Assembly (NCBI GenBank): GCA_016183235.1
Contig: JACPFA010000038.1
Span: 1 to 45,520, forward strand
Source: Deltaproteobacteria bacterium
Lineage (GTDB): Bacteria; UBA10199; DSSB01; JACPFA01
DNA length: 45,520 bases
Direction: 5' to 3'
A program made the position numbers and the translations under genes. Under the pieces are notes generated by a model that was not told the origin of the DNA, searched no databases, and saw only the letters and a list, made by a program, of their open reading frames with translations. How positions within the stretch are numbered: the first letter of the stretch is position 1; each line of letters starts with the position of its first letter. This document shows positions 11,262 to 43,134 of this stretch, in pieces.

Positions 11262-13256
11262 TTATTCAAGAGACTCAGCTAAATATTCAGCAAAGTCTTT
11301 CGTTTGAATCTTTTCTTCAACTTCTTTATCCCGCGTTGCGTCTCGCATCATGGTAAGACAGAAGGGGCATGCGCTGGCAATGCCTTGCGGATTAACCGTT
11401 TGCAAATCTTCTAAGCGCTTATGGTTCACCCGAGTGCCCGCCCGTTCTTCCATCCACATACGTCCACCGCCGGCACCGCAACAGCGGCCAATTTCGCGGG
11501 ATAGAGCTGCTTCTTTGACCTCTAAACCAGGGATGGATTTTAAGACATTACGAGGGGCGTCATAAATATTATTGTAACGACCTAAATAACAACTGTCATG
11601 ATAAGTAATGCTTTGCTTTAAGTCTTTGGTGGGTTTGATGCGGCCTTCTGCAATCAGGTTTTCAATAAATTCTGCATGATGCACAACCTTAAAATTTCCA
11701 CCAAACTGGGGGTATTCATTTTTCAAGGTGTTAAAACAATGTGGGCACTGGGCCAGCACCGTTCTGAATTTATATTTGTTCATGGTGGCGATGTTTTGTT
11801 TGGCCAAGGTTTGATATAAATATTCATTGCCAATTCGACGAGCCGAATCACCCGTGCAGGTTTCTTCGGGGCCAAGGATGGCAAAGTCAATGCCGGCTTT
11901 TTGTAAAATCTTAACCACGGCGACAGAAACTTTTTTGTTTCGATCATCAAAAGAGCCTGCACAACCCACCCAATAAAGCACATCAACTTCAGGCTTTTCA
12001 GAAAGTAGCGGCACGCCTAGGTCTTTAGCCCAAGCCGCGCGTTGATCAAACCCAATACCCCAAGGGTTGCCATTGGTTTCCATATTTTTAAAAGTATTCT
12101 GCACTTCGGTAGGGAATTCGCCCTTCATAAGCACCAAATGGCGGCGCATTTCTACAATTTTGTCGACATATTCAATCATGACGGGGCAAGCCTCTTCGCA
12201 AGCCCTACAAGTGGTGCAACTCCAAAGCACTTCAGGGTCAATGGGGTTGGGCACGAGGGAGTGATTGGCTTCATTGCGAATATTTTCATCTTTGCTCAAT
12301 AGCTTAGCCGTATTTTGGTAGGCATGTTCTTTAATATCGTTTAGAAATTTTTTAGGATTCAGCACCTTGCCAGTATTATGAGCCGGGCACTGCGCTGTGC
12401 ATCGCCCGCACTCCGTGCACGTGTACATGTCAAACACATCTTTCCAACTAAACTCCGTTAATTTATCGACGCCAAAGGTGGTGGCATTGGGATCTTCCAA
12501 GTTGATGGGTTCAAGCTCACCGTAAGGTCGCAAATTTCGCAAAAAGATGTTGGGAAGAGCGGTGATGATATGAAAGTGTTTGCCATAAGGTAAAAAGTTA
12601 AGAAAAACCAAAATCAGTGTGATGTGTATTAAAAAGGAAGCATTGCCTAAAATTGACAAAACCCCTTCGCTTAAAGAAAAGTTAGATAGCAAATTGGCTG
12701 TAGCAACGCTTAACGGGGCTTTCCAGGTTTCAGGATAACTGGTCAGTACAAATTCAGCACCATCAAAGAGCAAGTCGGTGATCATGAGGGTTGCGATAAA
12801 ACAAAGGATGATAACACCTTCTATAGAAAGGGTAATCCGTGCGGGTTTGGTAATGAGACGGCGAATCAAAAAAACAGCTACACCTAAAAGAACAAGTCCA
12901 GAAAAGACATCTTTGGAAAGATTGTAAACTCCACCGAGAATACCCGTAGTACCCAATAAAGGAAGATGAAAGCCTTCTGAAAACCCCATCCCAAACAGTG
13001 TGATCGTGCGTAACGAGACAACGCAAAAACCCCAAAAAATAAAGGCATGAAAAAGCCCAGGCACGGGGTCTTTTAAAATCATTCTGGATTGGGCAAAACC
13101 ATATTTTAAAACGGCGCCGATGCGTTGGGGGATCTTTTTAAGACGCTCCGGATCGGGTTTGGTAGCCAAATGGATGAGGCCATAGCGTGTGTAAATAGAA
13201 TACACAAAAACAGCAAGACCTAAGACGATGACGAGGGCAGTGAAGATAGGAAACAT
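11262..13256 (-). CDS. Membrane-bound ETF:(mena)quinone oxidoreductase, FadF/EMO-type FeS protein
   Basis: The proposed start at ATG 13256 gives MFPIFTALVIVLGLAVFVYS, the first membrane helix; a longer ORF reaches 13412 but runs into a palindromic repeat. About five membrane helices with candidate heme-ligand histidines (FHAFIFWG, LIHITLIL, KHFHI; NarI-like) are followed by two 4Fe-4S motifs (CTECGRCTAQCP and CTTCRACEEACP) and two CCG-type domains (VGCAGSFDD; CCGAGGGRMW). This is the heterodisulfide reductase-like FadF family, shown in other bacteria to link ETF to menaquinone. Its place beside etfBA and the dehydrogenase, though convergent with them, supports that role. Confidence 0.88.
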   Translation of the reverse strand: MFPIFTALVIVLGLAVFVYSIYTRYGLIHLATKPDPERLKKIPQRIGAVLKYGFAQSRMILKDPVPGLFHAFIFWGFCVVSLRTITLFGMGFSEGFHLPLLGTTGILGGVYNLSKDVFSGLVLLGVAVFLIRRLITKPARITLSIEGVIILCFIATLMITDLLFDGAEFVLTSYPETWKAPLSVATANLLSNFSLSEGVLSILGNASFLIHITLILVFLNFLPYGKHFHIITALPNIFLRNLRPYGELEPINLEDPNATTFGVDKLTEFSWKDVFDMYTCTECGRCTAQCPAHNTGKVLNPKKFLNDIKEHAYQNTAKLLSKDENIRNEANHSLVPNPIDPEVLWSCTTCRACEEACPVMIEYVDKIVEMRRHLVLMKGEFPTEVQNTFKNMETNGNPWGIGFDQRAAWAKDLGVPLLSEKPEVDVLYWVGCAGSFDDRNKKVSVAVVKILQKAGIDFAILGPEETCTGDSARRIGNEYLYQTLAKQNIATMNKYKFRTVLAQCPHCFNTLKNEYPQFGGNFKVVHHAEFIENLIAEGRIKPTKDLKQSITYHDSCYLGRYNNIYDAPRNVLKSIPGLEVKEAALSREIGRCCGAGGGRMWMEERAGTRVNHKRLEDLQTVNPQGIASACPFCLTMMRDATRDKEVEEKIQTKDFAEYLAESLE

Positions 13257-13325
13257 GGGGGCGGTATAACCCAGCAGTCCCAGGCGGGCAACAAAAATCA
13301 ATTTGCCCAAAACCCTACAAGTAGG

Positions 13326-13611
13326 TATAGTCTTCGAGAATTTTTTACTGAAGTCTTTTCGAGGTAGGGAGAGGCCAATGGAGAGACTTTTAGGAGGGCG
13401 GATCCAACGCATGCGCCTCAGGACAGGCTCCGGAGGGCATCTGTCATTGCGAGCCCAACGGGCGCGGCAATCTCACCGGTTAAACCGATGGGATTGTTTC
13501 GTCGCAGACTCCTCGCAATGACAGAGACCCTCATAGGCCGACCGGGCGCGGGCTCTCCCTTGACCTCTCCTTACCTCGAAAAGACTTCAGTAAAAAATTC
13601 TCGAAAACTAT
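13326..13611. repeat. Family B palindrome with an inserted family C element
   Basis: The outer arms (about 13326-13384 and 13553-13611) pair over roughly 55 bp with a few mismatches, from TCGAGAATTTTTTACTGAAG inward through TCTTTTCGAGGTA. The inner part is the 423-513 element in inverted orientation. Its loop is replaced by about 160 bp that contain a complete TCATTGCGAG element (13442-13523). It occupies most of the divergent gap between the oxidoreductase and lemA genes; no other gene is visible there. Confidence 0.9.
13442..13523. repeat. Family C palindromic element nested in family B
   Basis: Bounded by TGTCATTGCGAG and CTCGCAATGACA, 82 bp, the same length as the 6687-6768 copy. The two agree closely up to the GGTTAAAC segment and differ more in the right half. 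Confidence 0.85.
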
Positions 13612-13628
13612 ACATTCTAAACTCTCCG

Positions 13629-13663
13629 TGTCATTACCCGACTCAGATCGGGTAATCCATGAT
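13629..13663. repeat. Short GTCAT-type hairpin before lemA
   Basis: TTACCCGA and TCGGGTAA pair around a short loop, flanked by TGTCA and CCATGAT. It sits 15 bp upstream of lemA. Confidence 0.75.
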
Positions 13664-13678
13664 GATGAAAGGGGCGAT

Positions 13679-14293
13679 ATGAAAAAGTTTATTGGTGTTT
13701 TGGTTGTTTTGGGTGTCTTGGCTATTGCTGTGTTTGCGGTCATTAGTTGGGGGGTTGGAGTTTATAACCAAATTGTTCAACTTGAAGAGACCGTTAATGA
13801 AAAGTGGTCGCAAGTGCAGAATGTTTATCAACGGCGGGCTGATCTTATCCCTAACCTTGTGCAAACCGTGAAAGGCTATGCTGCTCATGAGCAAGAAACC
13901 TTAACGCAAGTTGTTGAGGCTCGGGCTAAGGCTACCTCTATTTCAGGTGATGCCTTAAAAAATTTGGTGAATGATCCTGCTGCGATGGCTAAATTTCAAG
14001 AAGCGCAAAGTGGCTTGAGCAGTGCTTTGTCGAAGTTAATGGTTGTGGTGGAGCGTTACCCTGATTTAAAGGCTAATCAAAATTTTCTTGAATTACAAAG
14101 TCAATTAGAAGGTACCGAGAACCGCATTGCTGTAGAGCGTAAACGATTTAATGAAGCGGCTCGTGAATACAATACTTATATTAAAAAAATCCCACAAAAA
14201 TTTGTGGCTTCTTACAAAGGGGCGAAGGAAAAGGCTTATTTTGAAGCCGAAGCTACTGCGCAAAAAGTTCCTACTGTGGATTTTGGGAAGTAA
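13679..14293 (+). CDS. lemA: LemA family protein
   Basis: A 204-residue LemA protein: an N-terminal membrane anchor (MKKFIGVLVVLGVLAIAVFA), then the extracytoplasmic helical bundle with the family signature YNQIVQLEETVNEKWSQV, YQRRADLIPNLVQTVKGYA and TENRIAVERKRFNEAAREYN. The start at ATG 13679 follows AAAGGGG; an upstream GTG (13628) would read the repeat. It is followed by two TPM-domain genes, a conserved LemA-YgcG arrangement. The function of LemA is not established. Confidence 0.93.
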   Translation: MKKFIGVLVVLGVLAIAVFAVISWGVGVYNQIVQLEETVNEKWSQVQNVYQRRADLIPNLVQTVKGYAAHEQETLTQVVEARAKATSISGDALKNLVNDPAAMAKFQEAQSGLSSALSKLMVVVERYPDLKANQNFLELQSQLEGTENRIAVERKRFNEAAREYNTYIKKIPQKFVASYKGAKEKAYFEAEATAQKVPTVDFGK

Positions 14294-14317
14294 TTTATTA
14301 TTTTAAGAGAACCTATA

Positions 14318-15151
14318 ATGTCATATATAGATCCCGGATCAGAGTCCGGGATGACGTCATGCCGGACTTTGATCCGGCATCCATTCATTTCATTCCGAGC
14401 CGTAAAAAAGAAGATTGCCACGCTTGCGCTCGCAATGACATTATTGTTTATCCCTCAGTTTGTCCATGCCTTCGATATTCCCTCCAAACCCGATAATTAC
14501 GTTAATGATTATGTTTCTTTGTTAGACCCTACCGACAAGGCTTATCTCAACACGCTATTGGCTGATTATGAAAAACAAACCTCTAATCAGATTTTTGTTG
14601 GGATTTTTAATAGTCTTGAAGGCGAAGTTTTAGAAGACCTTTCGATAAGCATTGCGGAGGCTTGGCGGGCCGGCCAATTAAAAAAAGACAATGGCGTACT
14701 CCTATTGATTTTTTTGAATGATCGCCAATTAAGGATTGAAGTGGGTTATGGCTTAGAAGGTATGCTCACCGATGCAAAATCTAAATCAATTATTGAACAG
14801 ATCTTGGTTCCGCGGTTTCGAACTCAACAATTTGGTTTAGGATTAAAAGAAGCCGTTGCCACGATGATGAAGACCATTGGCAATGAATTTAGCAACGAGT
14901 TTACTCAACAATACGGCCAAAATCTTGCTAAATTAAAGAAAAGACAAAAGCCAATCTGGGTTCCCCTTTTTGGATTACTTTTGTTTTTAATCATTATGGC
15001 TAACAGCCGCCATGGGCGAAGAGGTATTACCTTTGGAGGCTCGTCGGGTTCAGGGTTTGGAGGTTTTGGGGGATTTGGGGGCGGTGGCGGTGGTTTTGGT
15101 GGGGGTGGCGGGGGAGGTTTTGGCGGAGGAGGTGCCAGTGGGCGTTGGTAA
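14318..15151 (+). CDS. TPM-domain (YgcG-like) exported/membrane protein
   Basis: After a signal-like segment (VKKKIATLALAMTLLFIP, cleavage near VHAFD) comes a TPM domain (about 45-175: VNDYVSLLDP, LEDLSISIAEAW, NGVLLLIFLNDRQLRIEVGYGLEG). Then follow a membrane helix (VPLFGLLLFLIIMAN) and a Gly-rich tail ending GGGGASGRW. This is the classic YgcG layout beside LemA. ATG 14318 follows AAGAGA at good distance, but codons 2-40 lie in palindromic repeats that also encode the basic part of the signal peptide. ATG 14435 would leave a signal peptide without positive charges, so I prefer 14318, with TTG 14369 also possible. Confidence 0.85.
   Translation: MSYIDPGSESGMTSCRTLIRHPFISFRAVKKKIATLALAMTLLFIPQFVHAFDIPSKPDNYVNDYVSLLDPTDKAYLNTLLADYEKQTSNQIFVGIFNSLEGEVLEDLSISIAEAWRAGQLKKDNGVLLLIFLNDRQLRIEVGYGLEGMLTDAKSKSIIEQILVPRFRTQQFGLGLKEAVATMMKTIGNEFSNEFTQQYGQNLAKLKKRQKPIWVPLFGLLLFLIIMANSRHGRRGITFGGSSGSGFGGFGGFGGGGGGFGGGGGGGFGGGGASGRW
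14320..14440. repeat. Three palindromic units at the start of the TPM gene
   Basis: Two hairpins, GATCCCGGATCAGAGTCCGG-type and GCCGGACTTTGATCCGGC-type, lie head to head. They are followed by a reversed TCATTGCGAG element (ending CGCTCGCAATGACA). All are in frame within the coding sequence. Confidence 0.8.
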
Positions 15152-15572
15152 ATTTTTTTCAAATGAAGAAAAAGAAAAAATTATTTCGGCTATTCAAACC
15201 GCTGAAAAAAACACTTCGGGAGAAATTCGTGTTCACCTGGTAAAACATTTAAAGGGAGATATTTTGGAAGAAGGGAAAAAGATCTTTGCACAGTTGGGTA
15301 TGACTAAAACAGCCCAACGCAATGGTATCCTTTTCTTACTAAGCCTCAAAGATCATCAGTTTGCCATTTTAGGCGATCAAGGCATTCACGATAAAGTTCA
15401 TGCCGAGTTTTGGCAAATAATTCGCAATGAATTAGAAGGTTATTTTAAACAAGGGTTGTTCTCAGATGGTTTAGTGGCTGGCATTTTAAAATGTGGAGAA
15501 GAGCTCAAGCGCTATTTCCCTTACCAATCAGGGGATAAGAATGAACTGCCAGATTCAATTTCTTCGAATTAA
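15138..15572 (+). CDS. TPM-domain protein, short cytosolic form
   Basis: A 144-residue protein with one TPM domain (FSNEEKEKIISAIQTAEKNT, SGEIRVHLVKHL, RNGILFLLSLKDHQFAILGD, DGLVAGILKCGEEL) and neither signal peptide nor membrane helix. The best start is GTG 15138, 14 bp inside the preceding gene. Its ribosome site GGAGGAGG (15125-15132) is part of the Gly codons of the upstream protein. The pairing of one anchored and one soluble TPM protein after LemA is seen in many bacteria. It ends in a 4-bp convergent overlap with the caspase/HEAT gene. Confidence 0.82.
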   Translation: MGVGKFFSNEEKEKIISAIQTAEKNTSGEIRVHLVKHLKGDILEEGKKIFAQLGMTKTAQRNGILFLLSLKDHQFAILGDQGIHDKVHAEFWQIIRNELEGYFKQGLFSDGLVAGILKCGEELKRYFPYQSGDKNELPDSISSN

Positions 15573-18500
15573 TTTAAGGCTAGGGCTGCCAATGCTTGGT
15601 TGGCTGCAAACCGGATTTGTGGGATGGGGTCTTTTGCATATTTTTGGAGAACTTTTTTAGTTTCTTGATCATGGCTATGGTAGGCAAGAAGGAGTTTTGT
15701 TAACTCAAGTGCCTCTCTTCTCACCGATGCACGGGGGTGCGTGCTGAATTGATCTGATATTTTAAGCCGCTGTTCGTCAGAGACCTCATGGGAAAGAACC
15801 GCGAAGCGAAGTGTATTTTTAACTAGGTCAAGATTTTGAGAAGTTAAGAATTTTTCAAGTCGGGCCCATAGTCCGCTTGGCAAATGAATATCAGAATGAT
15901 TGTAGGTCATTTTTTGTAGGAAATAAACGACAGCAGGGCTTAAGGTTTCTTCATTGAGCAACGGGATGATATGATTAACCATTTCTTGGGTCGTGCCTTG
16001 ACCAAAATTTTTAATAAGATCTGCCTTCAGAGAATGATCAGAGGACCGTTTAAGCATTGTAAAACAAATGACTGTTTCTTCGGACTGAGTATCTGGGGAT
16101 GAGGGCTTAAACCGTAAATACCGATATATCTTAGCGTCAAGGAAAACGGGGGTTTTTTTTACAAGAGCAGGATCTCTCAAAATTGGGTGTAATACGGCAT
16201 CTTTTTCAAATAGAGCTGCATCGAGTAACCATGATTGTACGGTCACATTTTGGGATTGCCAAGCTGCAATATAGAAGTCTTTTCTTTCTTCGGGCGGAGT
16301 ACTTGCCAATTGCAATTGGTAATAAGCTAGGGCTAATTGTGGATCAGTATTGGCATCGATGGTTAAAGGGAACATTTGGGTATAGGTTTTCCAACTTAGT
16401 TTTTGCCTACTACGTAAGGCTGTTTGTAAAATAAGAAGCCGATCGGATGTTTTATATTGATTCCAAACTGTCCGAGCATAAGCCACCATTTTTTCTGTAA
16501 GTTTTTGGGTGCCTATCTTTCGATGAGCCCTGTGTTCTTCCATCGTAGCAACTAGCATCCAACGTTCAACGATTGCCACTACACGCTCAACATCATCGAG
16601 AGGGATTTTTTTGAGAAAATCGTCTAATTGTTCCCCATTGTTCAACACAAGATAGTGACTCAAAAGTTCAGCAGCAATTTCAGGATTAGGTAGTACAGCT
16701 AATTCATCCCTTAAGTTTTTCAAAATGTAAATTCCTACAAATTCATCTTTCAAACCCTGAAATGCTTGATAACGAACTCCACCATCAGCATCGCCTTTTG
16801 CTACGGCTAACAGGAACTCTTGGGAGGGCTGGTCATAAGCCAAGGTCTTAGCGGCTGCCTTTCGCACATGAATCCGGTCATGAATCAACAGCTCTTGCAG
16901 CCGAGTTCGCAGTGGTTCGCTTAAAGGCCCTCGTAAAGACGTCATGACTCTTGTAACCACCATCTCATCTTCATGTTCTAGCAGTGGGTCTAGAAGATTT
17001 TTATAACGTTCATAAGAACCAACGGGGAGTTTACTTAAGAGTAAAGTTAATGATGCAACAGGAATCTTGCCACCCTCAAACCAGGCCACCATTTCTTCCC
17101 AGCTGGGGGGTCTTGGGGACCAACTCAAGAGCGTTAATGCCTTTGCCCTGCCTTCTTCATGCGGCCCTACCATTTGTTGTTTAATCATTTTATCAAGCTT
17201 AGGGGAAGCTTGCTTTAGAACCTTTTGTGCTTCTTCATATCCTAGATTGAGAAATTCAGAAATAAGTACAAACATAGCTTGGGTTTTGAGGGGAGGAAGT
17301 TTTTGCATAACTTCATCAAACAAATGGGTTGCTTCAACACTAATTTTTCTTAGACGAAAGAGGGCTTTAATGGCGACCGCCTGCTGTTCATCACTAGATG
17401 AACGGAGAAATTGGGCAATGGTCTTAAATAATATTTTATCGCCTTGTTTTAAGACAGAAATTAATTTTGAAAGATCTGTGCGAGAAGAGGGATTACCAAG
17501 TTCTTTTGCAAGATCAACCCGAAAATAAGATTGGCTTCTCCACTCTGCAAATGATTCTAGAGCAACTAAGCGTATGCCAGGATCGCCGGAATGCAAGGCC
17601 TGAAGAAAGGCTTTTATTTGAGGGGCCGCTACAAGACTATGAAATTTAGGTAAGGCATAATATTCAAGCCCAGTCTGGGCAAGACCGCGTAATGCCCCAA
17701 CCACCGACTCACGCGGACCTTTTTTAGCTACTTCTTGCAAAAGTAGGGGCAAGGTGTCTAACTCTCGTTTTGCATAATGCCCCACGAGTTCAAGCTGTAA
17801 GCCCCTTGCTGCAGGTTCAGCCCATAAGGGAAGCGCAATTAATTGTGGAGCCAAATCATAGCTTAAGTCAAAATCTTCAGGCATGGCTAATAGTTTGCGA
17901 GCATCGTTGACAAAGGATTCAGGATTTTTTGTATTCAAAATTCCAAACCACAGCGGGAGTTTGGTTAAGACCTTTTCTCCATAGCGGTTCAAATATTGCA
18001 GAGTGAATGGGGTTGGAATTCCATCTTGTAAGAAGAGATGCTCGGCCAATCTTTTGTTAGTTATTTCAGGATTAAATGTTTCTCCAAAGTGGCGACTAAA
18101 TTCTTGTTGTAATTCTTCTAATGTAGCTAATTTGCGACGAACCTGTAAAACTTTGTTTCCTTCCATGTAAATAAGGATGGGCAACGATTGAGAAGAGATC
18201 GATTTATCATTCAATTGCTGCCCCACTTTGGCTGCTAAGGCTTCATCCGTGGTCCAGGAGTTATAGACCTTATAAATTGGAATAGTTGAACCTAGAGTTA
18301 CCTGAAAATTATCAAACTCTTGGGCTAATTGCTTACAAGCGCCACAACCAGGATCGGAAAGCATCAACAATTTTCTACCAGGGGCATCAATAGCCGCTGT
18401 TACGTCGGTAGCATCATGCAAGGGAATGGCCGAGCGACGGTAAGAACCTCGTAACCCTAAGAGATTTTCTTCGTTGTAATGTTGTAGGGCATAAAGAAAA

Positions 18501-19447
18501 GGCTCTCGCAAGGAAAGGATATCGGGTCTACCATCCAGATCAATCAACCGGTTAGCCGCCTCACGCCAATAGGGGATAAATCGCCCACATTGGGTGGTTT
18601 TTGTATCGGAAATAGGGGCTTGGGCTTCTAAATATTTAGAACCAACCAAGGTTTCTTCTAGGATTTGCGGGACAGGGCCACTAAAGCAGGGGTCAGCCAC
18701 AAACACAACCCCCATGACGGGTAAGCCCTTAAGTTGTTGAGCCAAACGTTTAACGCTATAATGTTGCCCCTGTGGAAAAATTAATTGCGGATCATCACCT
18801 TTTAAATCGCCATGACCGGTCCAATAAACCACCAATAGATCTTTAGGCCCAGCCTTGGCAGTAAGCTCGGCCATAGCGCTATCAACACCTTCTTGGCTTG
18901 CAGCAAAATAGCTACCACCCGCTAAAACAGGGGCAGAAGGCCCTACGAGGATTGTATTTTCCCAAGCCGTTCCAAAAAAACGCCAAGTCAGGGCCATTTC
19001 ATCAGCATTTGTTTGGTGAACTTTGTCTTGTTCATCTCCGTTAATATTTAAATGCCAAAGTTTTTCATGAGGTGGAAGATCTAGTGTTGCTTCAACGACA
19101 TCTTTACCGGAGGCGTGTTGGCCTTTCCAAATTTGATAATCTTCGTTCATCCCAAACTTGCGTGCATAAAATGAAATATCATCGGGGTAGCCTTGAGGGA
19201 GTTTTTCAAATTTTTCTTGGGTAACATTCTTGAGTTGAGCAGCGATGGAATCAGAATAAAATAAAGTCAGATAGGCACGAACTTCTTCGTTCGAATAAAC
19301 TTTATTTTTTGTGTAAAAATGATCGGCTTGTAAAACAGCTTCTATTTCTGCTTCGCTGATCTCAGCGGGCTTGCCATCTTCCCTAGCCAGGGTTTCGACA
19401 AATTCACGCAAATATTCATAACGAACAAAAAGAGCTTTCCCACCCAT
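15569..19447 (-). CDS. Caspase-like / thioredoxin-like / HEAT-repeat protein
   Basis: A 1292-residue protein with no signal peptide. Residues ~135-300 look like a clan CD (caspase/legumain-like) peptidase: a strand ending in LLVVYWTGHGD (His212) and VVFVADPCFSG (Cys254), spaced as in the His-Cys dyad. Residues ~355-455 resemble a thioredoxin fold with LSDPGCGACKQL (Cys368/Cys371) and a later LPILIY cis-Pro strand. From ~530 to the end, short helical pairs (for example VRYQAFQGLKDE, VRKAAAKTLAYD, IRFAANQALAAL) indicate HEAT repeats. A scaffold-sensing protease is a reasonable guess. ATG 19447 has no clear Shine-Dalgarno; a TTG lies three codons upstream. The exported-protein gene upstream is on the same strand. 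Confidence 0.75.
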   Translation of the reverse strand: MGGKALFVRYEYLREFVETLAREDGKPAEISEAEIEAVLQADHFYTKNKVYSNEEVRAYLTLFYSDSIAAQLKNVTQEKFEKLPQGYPDDISFYARKFGMNEDYQIWKGQHASGKDVVEATLDLPPHEKLWHLNINGDEQDKVHQTNADEMALTWRFFGTAWENTILVGPSAPVLAGGSYFAASQEGVDSAMAELTAKAGPKDLLVVYWTGHGDLKGDDPQLIFPQGQHYSVKRLAQQLKGLPVMGVVFVADPCFSGPVPQILEETLVGSKYLEAQAPISDTKTTQCGRFIPYWREAANRLIDLDGRPDILSLREPFLYALQHYNEENLLGLRGSYRRSAIPLHDATDVTAAIDAPGRKLLMLSDPGCGACKQLAQEFDNFQVTLGSTIPIYKVYNSWTTDEALAAKVGQQLNDKSISSQSLPILIYMEGNKVLQVRRKLATLEELQQEFSRHFGETFNPEITNKRLAEHLFLQDGIPTPFTLQYLNRYGEKVLTKLPLWFGILNTKNPESFVNDARKLLAMPEDFDLSYDLAPQLIALPLWAEPAARGLQLELVGHYAKRELDTLPLLLQEVAKKGPRESVVGALRGLAQTGLEYYALPKFHSLVAAPQIKAFLQALHSGDPGIRLVALESFAEWRSQSYFRVDLAKELGNPSSRTDLSKLISVLKQGDKILFKTIAQFLRSSSDEQQAVAIKALFRLRKISVEATHLFDEVMQKLPPLKTQAMFVLISEFLNLGYEEAQKVLKQASPKLDKMIKQQMVGPHEEGRAKALTLLSWSPRPPSWEEMVAWFEGGKIPVASLTLLLSKLPVGSYERYKNLLDPLLEHEDEMVVTRVMTSLRGPLSEPLRTRLQELLIHDRIHVRKAAAKTLAYDQPSQEFLLAVAKGDADGGVRYQAFQGLKDEFVGIYILKNLRDELAVLPNPEIAAELLSHYLVLNNGEQLDDFLKKIPLDDVERVVAIVERWMLVATMEEHRAHRKIGTQKLTEKMVAYARTVWNQYKTSDRLLILQTALRSRQKLSWKTYTQMFPLTIDANTDPQLALAYYQLQLASTPPEERKDFYIAAWQSQNVTVQSWLLDAALFEKDAVLHPILRDPALVKKTPVFLDAKIYRYLRFKPSSPDTQSEETVICFTMLKRSSDHSLKADLIKNFGQGTTQEMVNHIIPLLNEETLSPAVVYFLQKMTYNHSDIHLPSGLWARLEKFLTSQNLDLVKNTLRFAVLSHEVSDEQRLKISDQFSTHPRASVRREALELTKLLLAYHSHDQETKKVLQKYAKDPIPQIRFAANQALAALALN

Positions 19448-19481
19448 GATAAGCAATATTCGTAAAAACTAATTTTTAGTT

Positions 19482-19516
19482 GTGTAAAATTTGTATTTCT
19501 ATAAAACATTTTACAC
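19482..19516. promoter_or_regulatory. Inverted repeat upstream of the caspase/HEAT gene
   Basis: GTGTAAAAT and ATTTTACAC are perfect 9-bp arms 17 bp apart, 35 bp upstream of the start codon. No T-run follows on either strand, so it looks like an operator rather than a terminator. Confidence 0.5.
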
Positions 19517-19538
19517 CTATTATTTTTTTGGATGGTTT

Positions 19539-19994
19539 TTAGTTTAGTGGAGAGTAGGGTTTGTCTAAACTAATTTCGATAGATTCTGTGGGTGGGGCAA
19601 AGGCGTTGATGACTTGGTAGCCAATGCGGCTTTTATTTTGGGCATCGGTGTGTTCAACCAGAATAATGACATCTTTAAATTGAGTTTCAAAAAATAATTG
19701 AAAACTGCTGGGTTTGTTTAAAGTCGTTTGGGCTAAAGGTGCCGTGCCTTGAACGGGGCACAGCCCGCTGGCACAAGCAGTAGTTAATAAGGCTGAAACT
19801 TTAAAGTCACCGTTTTCATAATCTTTGAATAGAACTTTGCCGCTGATAGCCACACTGACAGGGTGCGGCGCGACCGTTTGAGAAACTACGGGTTCATCTT
19901 TTTTGTCTTTTTCGACTTCAATAACGCAAAACTTAGATCCCGTTGTAACCAAAAAGATATAGGCCAAACTGGCTAATAAAAAACGACCCTTCAT
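19539..19994 (-). CDS. Exported small protein, beta-sandwich-like
   Basis: I cannot name this 151-residue protein. An N-terminal hydrophobic segment (MKGRFLLASLAYIFLVTTG) indicates export or anchoring; the following SKFC is not a proper lipobox. After a charged linker (EVEKDKKDE) the rest alternates hydrophobic strands (VSVAISGKVLF, FKVSALLTTAC, FQLFFETQFKDVIILVEHTD) in the manner of a transthyretin/CarboxypepD_reg-like domain. Cys residues in TTACASGLCPV could form a disulfide. It lies just upstream of, and on the same strand as, the caspase/HEAT gene, so the two may be co-expressed. Confidence 0.6.
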   Translation of the reverse strand: MKGRFLLASLAYIFLVTTGSKFCVIEVEKDKKDEPVVSQTVAPHPVSVAISGKVLFKDYENGDFKVSALLTTACASGLCPVQGTAPLAQTTLNKPSSFQLFFETQFKDVIILVEHTDAQNKSRIGYQVINAFAPPTESIEISLDKPYSPLN

Positions 19995-20061
19995 ACCCTA
20001 ATTATCGTAACTCCTTGAAAAAAGGTTGCTATTTTAATAATTTTCTCTCTCATTAGTGATT

Positions 20062-21003
20062 ATGAATAAAACGGCTATCATATGGAACGAAAAATTTTTG
20101 CAACATGATACGGGCCTTGGGCATCCCGAAAGACCTGCCCGCTTGCAGGCTATTCATGAGGTATTGCAAGGGTATGGGAAAACCCTGGCTTGGCTTACCC
20201 CTGTTTTAGGGGCTAGAGTTGATATTGCTAGGGTTCATACCCAAACTCATGTTGAACAAGTTGAGTCTACCCAACAACGACCTCAATCTTATTTAGACCC
20301 CGATACGGTTACAAGCCAACAGAGTTGGGAGGCGGCCTTATTTGCCGTTGGCAGCACAATCGATGGTTGCCAAAGAGTGCTCGATGGAGAATTTGAGCAT
20401 GCCTTTGCCTTGGTGCGCCCACCTGGCCATCATGCTGAAACAGACCACGCCATGGGGTTTTGTCTCTTTAATAATATTGCGATTGCTGCAGCTCACTTAA
20501 TCGCGAGTCAGCATTTAAAAAAAATAGCGATCATTGATTTTGATGTGCACCATGGTAATGGCACCCAACATTCGTTTTATGATCGGGATGATATTTTTTA
20601 TGTTAGCACTCATCAATATCCTTTTTATCCAGGGACGGGATCGGCAAATGAAAAGGGAACCGGAGCTGGTGCAGGGTACACCCTTAACCTACCCATGGCA
20701 GCTGGGGCAGGGGATGAAGAATATAAAATGGCCTTTCAAAATAAAATTATTCCTACGCTTCAAACTTATCAACCAGAAATGATCTTAGTCTCAGCCGGTT
20801 ACGATGCGCATCGTTTAGATCCTTTGGCGAATATCAATTTAACGAAAGCAGGTTTTTATTCCATTGTTGCAATGATTCACCAACTCGCTCTTGATTGTTG
20901 CCAAGGGAAACAAGTCTATGTATTAGAAGGCGGGTATAGTTTGGAAGGTCTTAAAGAAGGGGTTCAGGCAACTTTAGATGTATTAACCAAAAAAAATATT
21001 TAA
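20062..21003 (+). CDS. Histone deacetylase-family (HDAC/AcuC-like) deacetylase
   Basis: A zinc-dependent class II HDAC-like deacetylase of 313 residues. Motifs: TGLGHPERPARL, VRPPGHHAE (active-site His pair), FCLFNNIAIAA, IIDFDVHHGNGTQ (Asp and His zinc ligands), STHQYPFYPGTG, SAGYDAHRLDP (second Asp ligand) and VLEGGYSLEGL. Bacterial members act on acetylated proteins, polyamines or other amides; the substrate cannot be read here. ATG 20062 is preferred over GTG 20056. The ribosome site is weak. Confidence 0.93.
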   Translation: MNKTAIIWNEKFLQHDTGLGHPERPARLQAIHEVLQGYGKTLAWLTPVLGARVDIARVHTQTHVEQVESTQQRPQSYLDPDTVTSQQSWEAALFAVGSTIDGCQRVLDGEFEHAFALVRPPGHHAETDHAMGFCLFNNIAIAAAHLIASQHLKKIAIIDFDVHHGNGTQHSFYDRDDIFYVSTHQYPFYPGTGSANEKGTGAGAGYTLNLPMAAGAGDEEYKMAFQNKIIPTLQTYQPEMILVSAGYDAHRLDPLANINLTKAGFYSIVAMIHQLALDCCQGKQVYVLEGGYSLEGLKEGVQATLDVLTKKNI

Positions 21004-22839: not shown

Positions 22840-22871
22840 ATGGATCCTCCGCCTTCGCGGAGGATGACATT
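22840..22871. repeat. Short GTCAT-type hairpin
   Basis: ATCCTCCGCCTTCGCGGAGGAT is the core of this REP-like hairpin, bounded by ATGG and GACAT. It separates the small gene from the DisA-like gene. Confidence 0.75.
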
Positions 22872-23733
22872 ATGGACGTTCGATTTCGAGGAGTGATTTA
22901 CCTTCTTTAAATACTCGGATATTTCCTGTGGATTCGCTAATAACGATGGCAAGAGCGTTTGTCAAGGCCGTTATCCCAGCCGCCGCCACATGTCGACTGC
23001 CCAAACCAATTTGCACCTCGGTATTAGACCCTGAGGCCCCCAAGTAACGACCTGCGGTTACCAAGGTGCCATCTTCTGCAATAATAAAAGCACCGTCTAA
23101 TGCACTAAATTCACGGATCGTTTCTTGTAAATCAGGGTTGAGAATATTGCAGTCTTTGGCTTCATAACCTTTGAAGGGGTTAATGATAAGCTGTTTACTC
23201 AAGGTCAAAACTTTTTCATGATCGCCCACGACAAAAATAGTGCCGACTCTTTTCCCTTCGCGGCCTTTAGCGGCCAATTCCATCGCTAAATTAAGTAATC
23301 TTTCTACAATGGCTGGATTGACCGTTTTAGAAAGCCCCAAGACCTGTTTGCTGCTAATGCCTTCATATTCTTTGCCGATTTCAAAATATAAGATTCGGTC
23401 AAACAGTTTATTTTCATGGTTTCCCGCCACAAAAACAACTTTATCTCCATTTTTGATAAGATTGGTAAAGATGGCATAAGCCAGGGCAACATTAACCAAA
23501 CCCGTTCGACCCAAATTGACCCTTGGCAAGGTAACCACGTGAGAAAATTTCTTTTGAATGACTTCAAGCTCTGGGCCTTGAGCCTCGCTAACCACCACCA
23601 ATTGAAAACCGCCTGTCTTTTCGGGAGGGGTATAGTCACCTAAAACGTCAAGATGAATAAAGACAAAGCCAGCTTTGATTGATTTGGCAATGTCAAAACT
23701 GTTTTTCAAAATGACTTTGTTGATGAGTTTCAT
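22870..23733 (-). CDS. DisA_N-domain protein (putative diadenylate cyclase) with altered RHR motif
   Basis: A 287-residue protein without membrane helices. The C-terminal ~110 residues are a DisA_N/DAC domain: LDGAFIIAEDGTLV (DGA motif), GLGSRHVAAAGIT in place of the usual GTRHRAA, and ALAIVISESTGNIRVF. DAC domains make c-di-AMP from two ATP. Here the second Arg of RHR is Val, so activity is uncertain. The N-terminal ~180 residues (KLINKVILKNSFDIAKSIKA, VVFVAGNHENKLFDRI, VGTIFVVGDHEKVL) show an alpha/beta pattern; VGTIFVVGDHEKVL is typical of the segment before some soluble DAC domains. Known relatives often act beside potassium or osmolyte control; nothing nearby shows that. Confidence 0.8.
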   Translation of the reverse strand: MKLINKVILKNSFDIAKSIKAGFVFIHLDVLGDYTPPEKTGGFQLVVVSEAQGPELEVIQKKFSHVVTLPRVNLGRTGLVNVALAYAIFTNLIKNGDKVVFVAGNHENKLFDRILYFEIGKEYEGISSKQVLGLSKTVNPAIVERLLNLAMELAAKGREGKRVGTIFVVGDHEKVLTLSKQLIINPFKGYEAKDCNILNPDLQETIREFSALDGAFIIAEDGTLVTAGRYLGASGSNTEVQIGLGSRHVAAAGITALTNALAIVISESTGNIRVFKEGKSLLEIERP

Positions 23734-41886: not shown

Positions 41887-43134
41887 TCATAAAGCAAGGT
41901 GCATTATCCCCTTACCAGGGGGAATATCATGGAAGCGTTTGTCATGTGTTGGTATGTTGTGCATGAAAAGATTTTTCACAACCTCGAGGCGTAACGGGAC
42001 GATGAGTATATCTTGCGAATCCCGCGCCTCATTGGGAACTCCTAGATTGCTAATGATAGCCTTAGTTGCCTCGTTCATAGGGAACACAATATAGGTACTT
42101 TTGTCATCTCCAACCTGCTTGTTGACATATGAGTCCCATCGTGGTTTGGACTCCGACCATTTGGATTCGGGCTGTTGCAACTGTGGAACCAGGGCGATAA
42201 ATATCGGTTTGTCTTGTGGCGCCGAGTGGATCGCCTGTTTGAGTTCGCCATAGTGGCGCATCATAGAAGAAATAAGAAAGTCATCATTGGGATTTGATAG
42301 CCCGGGCTGCCGGAGGATCTTTTTTAAGCCTTCCGATGCGACATTGGTATTTAATAGTTCTTTTAACTGGTCGGGAGGAACATTCTCAAGACCGAATTCA
42401 ACCCGCGGTGAAGTTATCAAGTTGCGGATACAGTTTTTTGAATCATCACCTGCACCAACTAGTACTTCTATCGAATCAAAAGAGAGATTGTGAAAATCGA
42501 CAAGGGGGCCTTTACTCCGATCAGGTAGAACCCCCCGTTTTTTTGCGGAGATGGTAACGGGATTGGTATCTTTAGGATCTAAGACAAATGCGACCGGTAT
42601 GCCCCTCTCGGCCTGCTCTATGCCCTGATTTGAAACATGTTTCGGGTTGCCCAGAATATTGGGCATTAGTGCGGATAAATATGTGGGGTCTTTGTTTGAT
42701 TCACTACCCACGTAAATCACATCTATTCCATTGTTTGTGGCCCAATCACGAAGCTCGTGACAGTTATGGCACCAATATTCACCAAAGATGACGAGAACCT
42801 TTCGTCCGCCTTGTGTCGCCTCCTTCACGGCGGCACCAAAATTCTTGATGGCTTCTGCGGTATTTCTGTAGCTGACCTTACGTAACGTCCCAGGTTGCGG
42901 CGGTGCAGTATCTTGCGGTCCGCCGGCGTGGTTCGTGTAGGCTGCCGAGTTGCCAAAACGGGCTGCTCGGAGTTGCCCTTCGTTAGGCATCCGCGGTGCG
43001 GCAGGTTGTGGATGGGTTAATCCACCCGGCGGGTTTACGGTGTCTGCGGTATTCGTAGTAGCTGCCGGTTGATCTGTGGGTGTAGTGGGTGTATAGGTCA
43101 CTGCAGGCGAAGAACCGACTTTCACCTCTGGCAT
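41887..43134 (-). CDS. Thioredoxin-like protein with disordered N-terminus and WCHNC motif
   Basis: Function unknown. ATG 43134 follows AAAGGAGG. Of 415 residues, 1-90 are Pro/Thr/Ala-rich and probably unstructured, with no signal peptide. Residues ~90-210 look like a thioredoxin fold: AAVKEATQGGRKVLVIFGEY then WCHNCHELRDWA (CxxC = CHNC) with IDVIYVG and GIPVAFVLDPKD (cis-Pro strand), as in DsbD-C/thioredoxin_7 domains. The remaining ~200 residues have no motif I recognise; helical (LKQAIHSAPQDKPIFIALVP) and strand segments alternate. The lack of a signal and its position among unknown accessory genes make it an orphan of unclear location. Confidence 0.72.
   Translation of the reverse strand: MPEVKVGSSPAVTYTPTTPTDQPAATTNTADTVNPPGGLTHPQPAAPRMPNEGQLRAARFGNSAAYTNHAGGPQDTAPPQPGTLRKVSYRNTAEAIKNFGAAVKEATQGGRKVLVIFGEYWCHNCHELRDWATNNGIDVIYVGSESNKDPTYLSALMPNILGNPKHVSNQGIEQAERGIPVAFVLDPKDTNPVTISAKKRGVLPDRSKGPLVDFHNLSFDSIEVLVGAGDDSKNCIRNLITSPRVEFGLENVPPDQLKELLNTNVASEGLKKILRQPGLSNPNDDFLISSMMRHYGELKQAIHSAPQDKPIFIALVPQLQQPESKWSESKPRWDSYVNKQVGDDKSTYIVFPMNEATKAIISNLGVPNEARDSQDILIVPLRLEVVKNLFMHNIPTHDKRFHDIPPGKGIMHLAL

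Follow-up and report, generated by a model that had tools for sequence, protein, structure and literature searches.

Does one bacterial gene really join a caspase-like protease, a thioredoxin and a long helical array, and what might such a protein do? The question is raised by the window, by which we mean the whole stretch of 45,520 nucleotides that was analysed. The features of the gene, and of the small gene beside it, are as follows.

15569 to 19456, minus strand: whole gene, with N-terminal extension, C13-like protease, thioredoxin and HEAT solenoid (open reading frame, homologues)
19073 to 19456, minus strand: N-terminal extension, residues 1-128, common to the window protein and its paralogue L016 only
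18422 to 19072, minus strand: clan CD (C13-like) peptidase domain, residues 129-345 (profiles, Foldseek)
18812 to 18814, minus strand: catalytic His215 (TGHG), aligned with the legumain T-N/D-HG motif
18686 to 18688, minus strand: catalytic Cys257 (DPCFSG), aligned with legumain EACESG
18587 to 18589, minus strand: second conserved cysteine, Cys290 (family GSxGExxxC), a proposed redox partner, present in 16 of 16 members with CxxC
18077 to 18421, minus strand: thioredoxin-fold domain, residues 346-460 (Pfam, profile-profile comparison, PDB)
18335 to 18346, minus strand: thioredoxin active site C371-G-A-C374 (alignment)
18179 to 18181, minus strand: probable cis-Pro426 (SLPILIY), which pairs with the invariant Pro of thioredoxins
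15572 to 18046, minus strand: HEAT alpha-solenoid, residues 471-1295 (Pfam, structure model, Foldseek)
19539 to 19994, minus strand: small exported-looking protein, judged from the synteny of its homologues to lie outside the system

Three domains in one polypeptide

From a TTG start, the reading frame at 15569-19456 runs for 1,295 amino acids; the nearest in-frame ATG, at 19447, lies three codons on and gives 1,292. Motif residues are counted here from the TTG (His215, Cys257, Cys371, Cys374), and the His212, Cys254, Cys368 and Cys371 of the original prediction are the count from the ATG. With no signal peptide recognisable by eye, the protein is most likely cytosolic. Taken as a single sequence it gave modest support: in Pfam, HEAT_2 scored above the cut-off and Thioredoxin_2 and Peptidase_C13 below it, and a phmmer search of the whole protein against PDB chains returned no match. 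The domain assignments became secure when homologues were brought in. The three-part layout is real, being found in two paralogues of the same genome and in 16 fusions with an intact CxxC from 12 genomes of the phylum. One paralogue (L013/L016, 1,376 amino acids) has the N-terminal extension, TGHG, SDQCYSG, WCEVC and a helical tail; the other (L015/L017, 880 amino acids) has TGHG, TDTCQSG, WCVPC, HEAT repeats and a barrel-like end.

The N-terminal extension is about 130 amino acids long. Residues 34-45 of L016 form an EF-hand-like loop, DQNLDGKLSEEE, whose counterpart in the window protein is degenerate; a Pfam scan of the extension for an EF-hand was negative, and the loop pattern occurs in L016 only. 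A similar acidic loop, DxNxDGxISxxE, lies inside the protease domain of most members, and also in the ordinary bacterial caspase homologues L152, L154 and L156.

On its own, the protease domain of the window protein matched Peptidase_C13 below the cut-off (E 0.13, 12.2 bits), while two other members, L018 and L026, passed the gathering threshold (25.5 and 25.0 against 22.8). A profile of the family reached legumain (E 3e-6, the match that places it in C13), metacaspase-4 (2e-5) and GPI8 (1.7e-4), and a profile made without the window protein and its closest paralogue still detected the window protease (E 2e-19, Z = 100,000). The structure model is confident in the protease core alone (residues 121-260, block pLDDT 53-91, mostly above 70), and Foldseek matched it to GPI8, legumain, asparaginyl ligases and MALT1. 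When the family was aligned with legumain, TGHG paired with TNHG, DQCYSG with EACESG, and the Glu of GSxGE with that of NPRES; NGDxxxRHxxN paired with NGWYNYRHQAD, a first stretch that alone scores below zero. The His (HG) and then the Cys (xC) lie on successive strands of the caspase fold, as in clan CD. The clan CD assignment first made from the motifs is therefore borne out by the fold match and by the family profile, and the His-Cys dyad is present in all 16 family proteins with an intact CxxC.

The thioredoxin domain has diverged, and more residues separate its CxxC from its cis-Pro than is usual in thioredoxins. Alone, it matched PF13098 (Thioredoxin_2) weakly (E 0.01), and a leave-out profile of the family thioredoxins did not reach it; we thus ran a separate profile-profile test. 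The window protein and L016 matched 13 unrelated thioredoxins with 98.6% probability (E 1.2e-15) over both CxxC and cis-Pro, and a PDB search with the same two domains found protein disulfide isomerase A4 (E 2e-8). These matches back the fold, and with it the reading of CGAC as a thioredoxin-like motif. The CxxC follows strand 1 and the cis-Pro precedes strand 3; in the structure model, this half is of low confidence (pLDDT about 25-48). Another thioredoxin-like domain is found elsewhere in the window, at 41887-43134 on the minus strand (EYWCHNCHE, Thioredoxin_7, E 5.9e-6 in Pfam), behind an N-terminus that looks disordered.

As for the tail, Pfam found HEAT_2 (E 4.8e-11), and a single-sequence model of the last 825 amino acids shows the helical hairpins of such repeats, with about 49 helices at a mean pLDDT of 58. 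The Foldseek matches listed for it are HEAT solenoids: importin-beta, karyopherin-beta2, SF3B1 and the PP2A A subunit. The predicted array is confirmed, at a length (about 825 residues) slightly above the roughly 750 first given. Other family members end in HEAT repeats, TPR-like repeats or barrel-like domains. The barrel-like C-termini are beta-rich in L017, L018 and L184, with similar ones in L143, L149, L153 and L155; in L185 the barrel is placed before the thioredoxin. They end in an aromatic residue and have the look of outer-membrane barrels, in host proteins with no obvious signal peptide. A Pfam scan of two of them found no domain.

Distribution of the fusion and its gene surroundings

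Protease-thioredoxin fusions with an intact CxxC were found as 16 proteins in 12 of the 46 genomes searched of the candidate phylum, all from a single class. The caspase-domain profile detected family members in 21 of the 46 at E <= 1e-10, and at E <= 1e-5 it matched 22, ordinary caspase homologues included. When a two-domain profile was run against 385 genomes, matches over both domains occurred inside the phylum only; among the roughly 340 genomes from other phyla it found no fusion, the best matches covering one domain, and none of the best 16 caspase matches outside the phylum carried a thioredoxin. The viral contigs searched held no member, and a wider contig scan, swamped by ordinary thioredoxins, gave two true relatives. 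The members L030 and L031 come from metagenome-assembled genomes titled 'Deltaproteobacteria bacterium'. The fusion is so far limited to one poorly known bacterial phylum.

The gene at 19539-19994 had been put forward as a possible partner or substrate of the protease. It does look like a small exported protein, and it is adjacent, on the same strand, across a gap of 82 bases. Its homologues in G001, G002, G003, G004 and G007, however, lie on other contigs than the protease or in genomes free of the family (as in G003 and G004), in a block of LemA, TPM, small lipoprotein, TatC and HDAC genes (in these loci, TatC and the homologues were identified by reading their translations). The G004 locus (L181) runs Fe-S protein, LemA, two small lipoproteins, TatC, HDAC, an order that matches the window. 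Since the block of these relatives lacks the protease, the small gene belongs to the block. The protease gene stands between the TPM genes and 19539-19994, and only in the window genome is it found inside such a block. Its paralogues have no neighbour resembling 19539-19994, and a comparison of neighbouring genes across the family found none shared. The expected conserved neighbourhood is thus missing, and we give almost no credence to a two-gene unit of the protease and the exported protein.

The block itself, with Fe-S protein, LemA, two TPM genes, small lipoproteins, TatC and HDAC, was seen at 11262-21003 of the window and in L181 and L178. Further on, 22870-23733 (minus strand) encodes a diadenylate cyclase (DAC domain) that weakly matches DacZ-type sensors, possibly a c-di-AMP enzyme.

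A link to bacterial immunity had also been suggested by analogy with TPR-CHAT. An effector of phage defence or cell death akin to TPR-CHAT/Craspase, whose HEAT array would be the sensor and whose protease the executioner, would agree with a caspase-like protease sitting on a repeat scaffold and with the one weak PADLOC match (HEAT-ARM), which fell in the repeats of a paralogue. PADLOC gave no meaningful match to the protease, however, and no Cas or other defence gene was seen adjoining it, nor was a gRAMP/Cas7-11 gene recognised among the window reading frames read. Its surroundings are housekeeping genes, with no neighbours common to the family. Pfam found neither CHAT nor TPR in the window protein, whose protease is, by sequence, nearer to family C13 (legumain, GPI8) than to TPR-CHAT. 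These findings speak against the immunity link, and we regard such an effector as highly improbable.

Cysteines of the protease and of the thioredoxin

Cys290 (family position C159) stands just after the S1-pocket motif of legumain (Glu loop). The 16 proteins whose CxxC is intact all keep equivalents of His215, Cys257 and Cys290, the cis-Pro is kept in every complete one, and the protease precedes the thioredoxin in all of them, in 12 genomes. This constancy argues against a plain shuffling of modules, in which thioredoxin, HEAT, TPR-like, barrel-like and caspase domains would recombine with no specific mechanism and the thioredoxin would be mainly structural or binding. Shuffling would account for the thioredoxins without a caspase (L183, L185 and window 41887-43134), for the varied tails, and for the thioredoxin fold that lacks CxxC in L146, L148 and L149 and is weak in L153 and L155. 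On balance we hold it to be rather unlikely.

Of the eleven family proteins with no CxxC, eight are missing the second Cys and two the catalytic Cys; the remaining one, L144, has both. L144 keeps the dyad and the second Cys with no thioredoxin in cis, which counts against the switch proposed below; its genome, G031, also codes for a separate thioredoxin-HEAT protein with CxxC, L183, and the two may be a split version of the fusion. Three close relatives that are missing a protease Cys are also missing CxxC or the thioredoxin. In L142 (G036), exactly the dyad is lost among 17 conserved positions (H to Q, C to E), together with the first Cys of the CxxC, in a thioredoxin that is well preserved elsewhere (E about 1e-33). 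In L019 (G034) the catalytic Cys has become Asn and the whole thioredoxin is gone. L146 (G031) still has the dyad, but its second Cys is gone, as are both cysteines of its CxxC.

As a control we looked at other conserved positions. In the distant members N13, D15, H24, N27, T88, D128 and P164 (family numbering) are lost together with CxxC, so part of the association between the second Cys and CxxC merely separates two subfamilies. The caspase-domain tree is poorly resolved: each trait changes six times on the best tree, but its well-supported branches hold only one independent pair of changes, and we therefore claim no statistical significance for the coupling. An unqualified co-evolution of the second Cys and CxxC, weakened by both observations, was set aside. 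The coupling of CxxC to the protease cysteines is suggestive and not proof. The joint losses lend indirect support to the redox gating of the protease by CxxC that had been proposed at the outset, and the co-varying control positions take part of that support away.

Since the thioredoxin cysteines persist only in proteins that keep those of the protease, the protease may hold a built-in redox switch. Our tentative preference, held at a little under even confidence, is that the thioredoxin in cis acts on the protease's own thiols and that the HEAT array chooses the target. Under oxidising conditions Cys257 would be locked, in the simplest case through a disulfide to Cys290, at the side of the S1 pocket, and otherwise through a mixed disulfide that it forms with the thioredoxin. 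The CxxC of the same chain, recharged by thioredoxin reductase, would then reduce the locked Cys257 and release protease activity, while the HEAT array (TPR-like repeats in other members) would bind a partner or substrate and set what is cut. It is the disulfide, the direction of switching and the target that we infer, beside the observed anatomy, conservation and joint loss. A cytosolic thioredoxin cycle is plausible, since the window genome encodes a thioredoxin reductase (above the cut-off) and no signal peptide was apparent. In animals, thioredoxin reduces oxidised or nitrosylated caspases, in a reaction between separate proteins.

A different division of labour would have the thioredoxin reduce the disulfides of a substrate held by the HEAT array, and not the protease thiols, after which the protease would cut. 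C13 peptidases cut exposed loops, the loss of CxxC alongside a dead protease is equally expected from such a machine, and a thioredoxin-HEAT protein without the protease exists (L183). It leaves unexplained why L146, with its dyad intact, lost CxxC together with the second Cys, and disulfides are rare in cytosolic substrates; we consider it unlikely. To return to the built-in switch, a more specific form is possible, and we hold it more tentatively still: the family would be phylum-restricted, self-reducing proteases whose cis thioredoxin makes and breaks a disulfide joining the catalytic Cys to the second Cys at the substrate pocket. If true, one polypeptide would turn the redox state of the cell into proteolysis of a scaffold-held target. 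A natural single-chain version, and relatives with joint cysteine loss, make redox control in clan CD testable by point mutation.

Comparison with known proteases

A search of mostly open-access literature found no precedent for the protease-thioredoxin fusion. A survey of bacterial caspase homologues lists 35 accessory domains, HEAT_2 included and thioredoxin absent (PMC8283722), and two others do not mention a thioredoxin accessory domain (PMC5756287, PMC7475262). The accessory domains in these homologues are mostly scaffolds or ATPases, and a fused thioredoxin would be, as far as the searched literature shows, the first built-in redox regulator among them. Bacterial orthocaspases (C14) likewise join a caspase-fold protease to a repeat scaffold; in those of cyanobacteria HEAT lies N-terminal to the protease (PMC8283722). 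A Nodularia metacaspase has a DsbA-like neighbour (PMC4933709).

TPR-CHAT/Craspase also places a caspase-like protease on an alpha-solenoid. The window protein is C13-like and not CHAT, no RNA-guided partner was recognised beside it, and TPR-CHAT is not known to carry a thioredoxin. The 2-Cys type III metacaspase of a diatom resembles the proposed switch in being a clan CD peptidase under redox control by two extra cysteines (PMC8455989); its regulatory pair, however, lies away from the active site, oxidation raises its activity, and it has no thioredoxin in cis (PMC8455989).

Legumain and GPI8 have several features in common with the family, namely the fold, NGxxxxRHxx(N) after strand 1, T-x-HG, xxC-x-(S) and the Glu of the S1-pocket loop. 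The window protein differs from them in being bacterial, without a signal peptide or the pro-domain of legumain, and in carrying one more conserved Cys behind the Glu loop, with a thioredoxin and a solenoid in cis.
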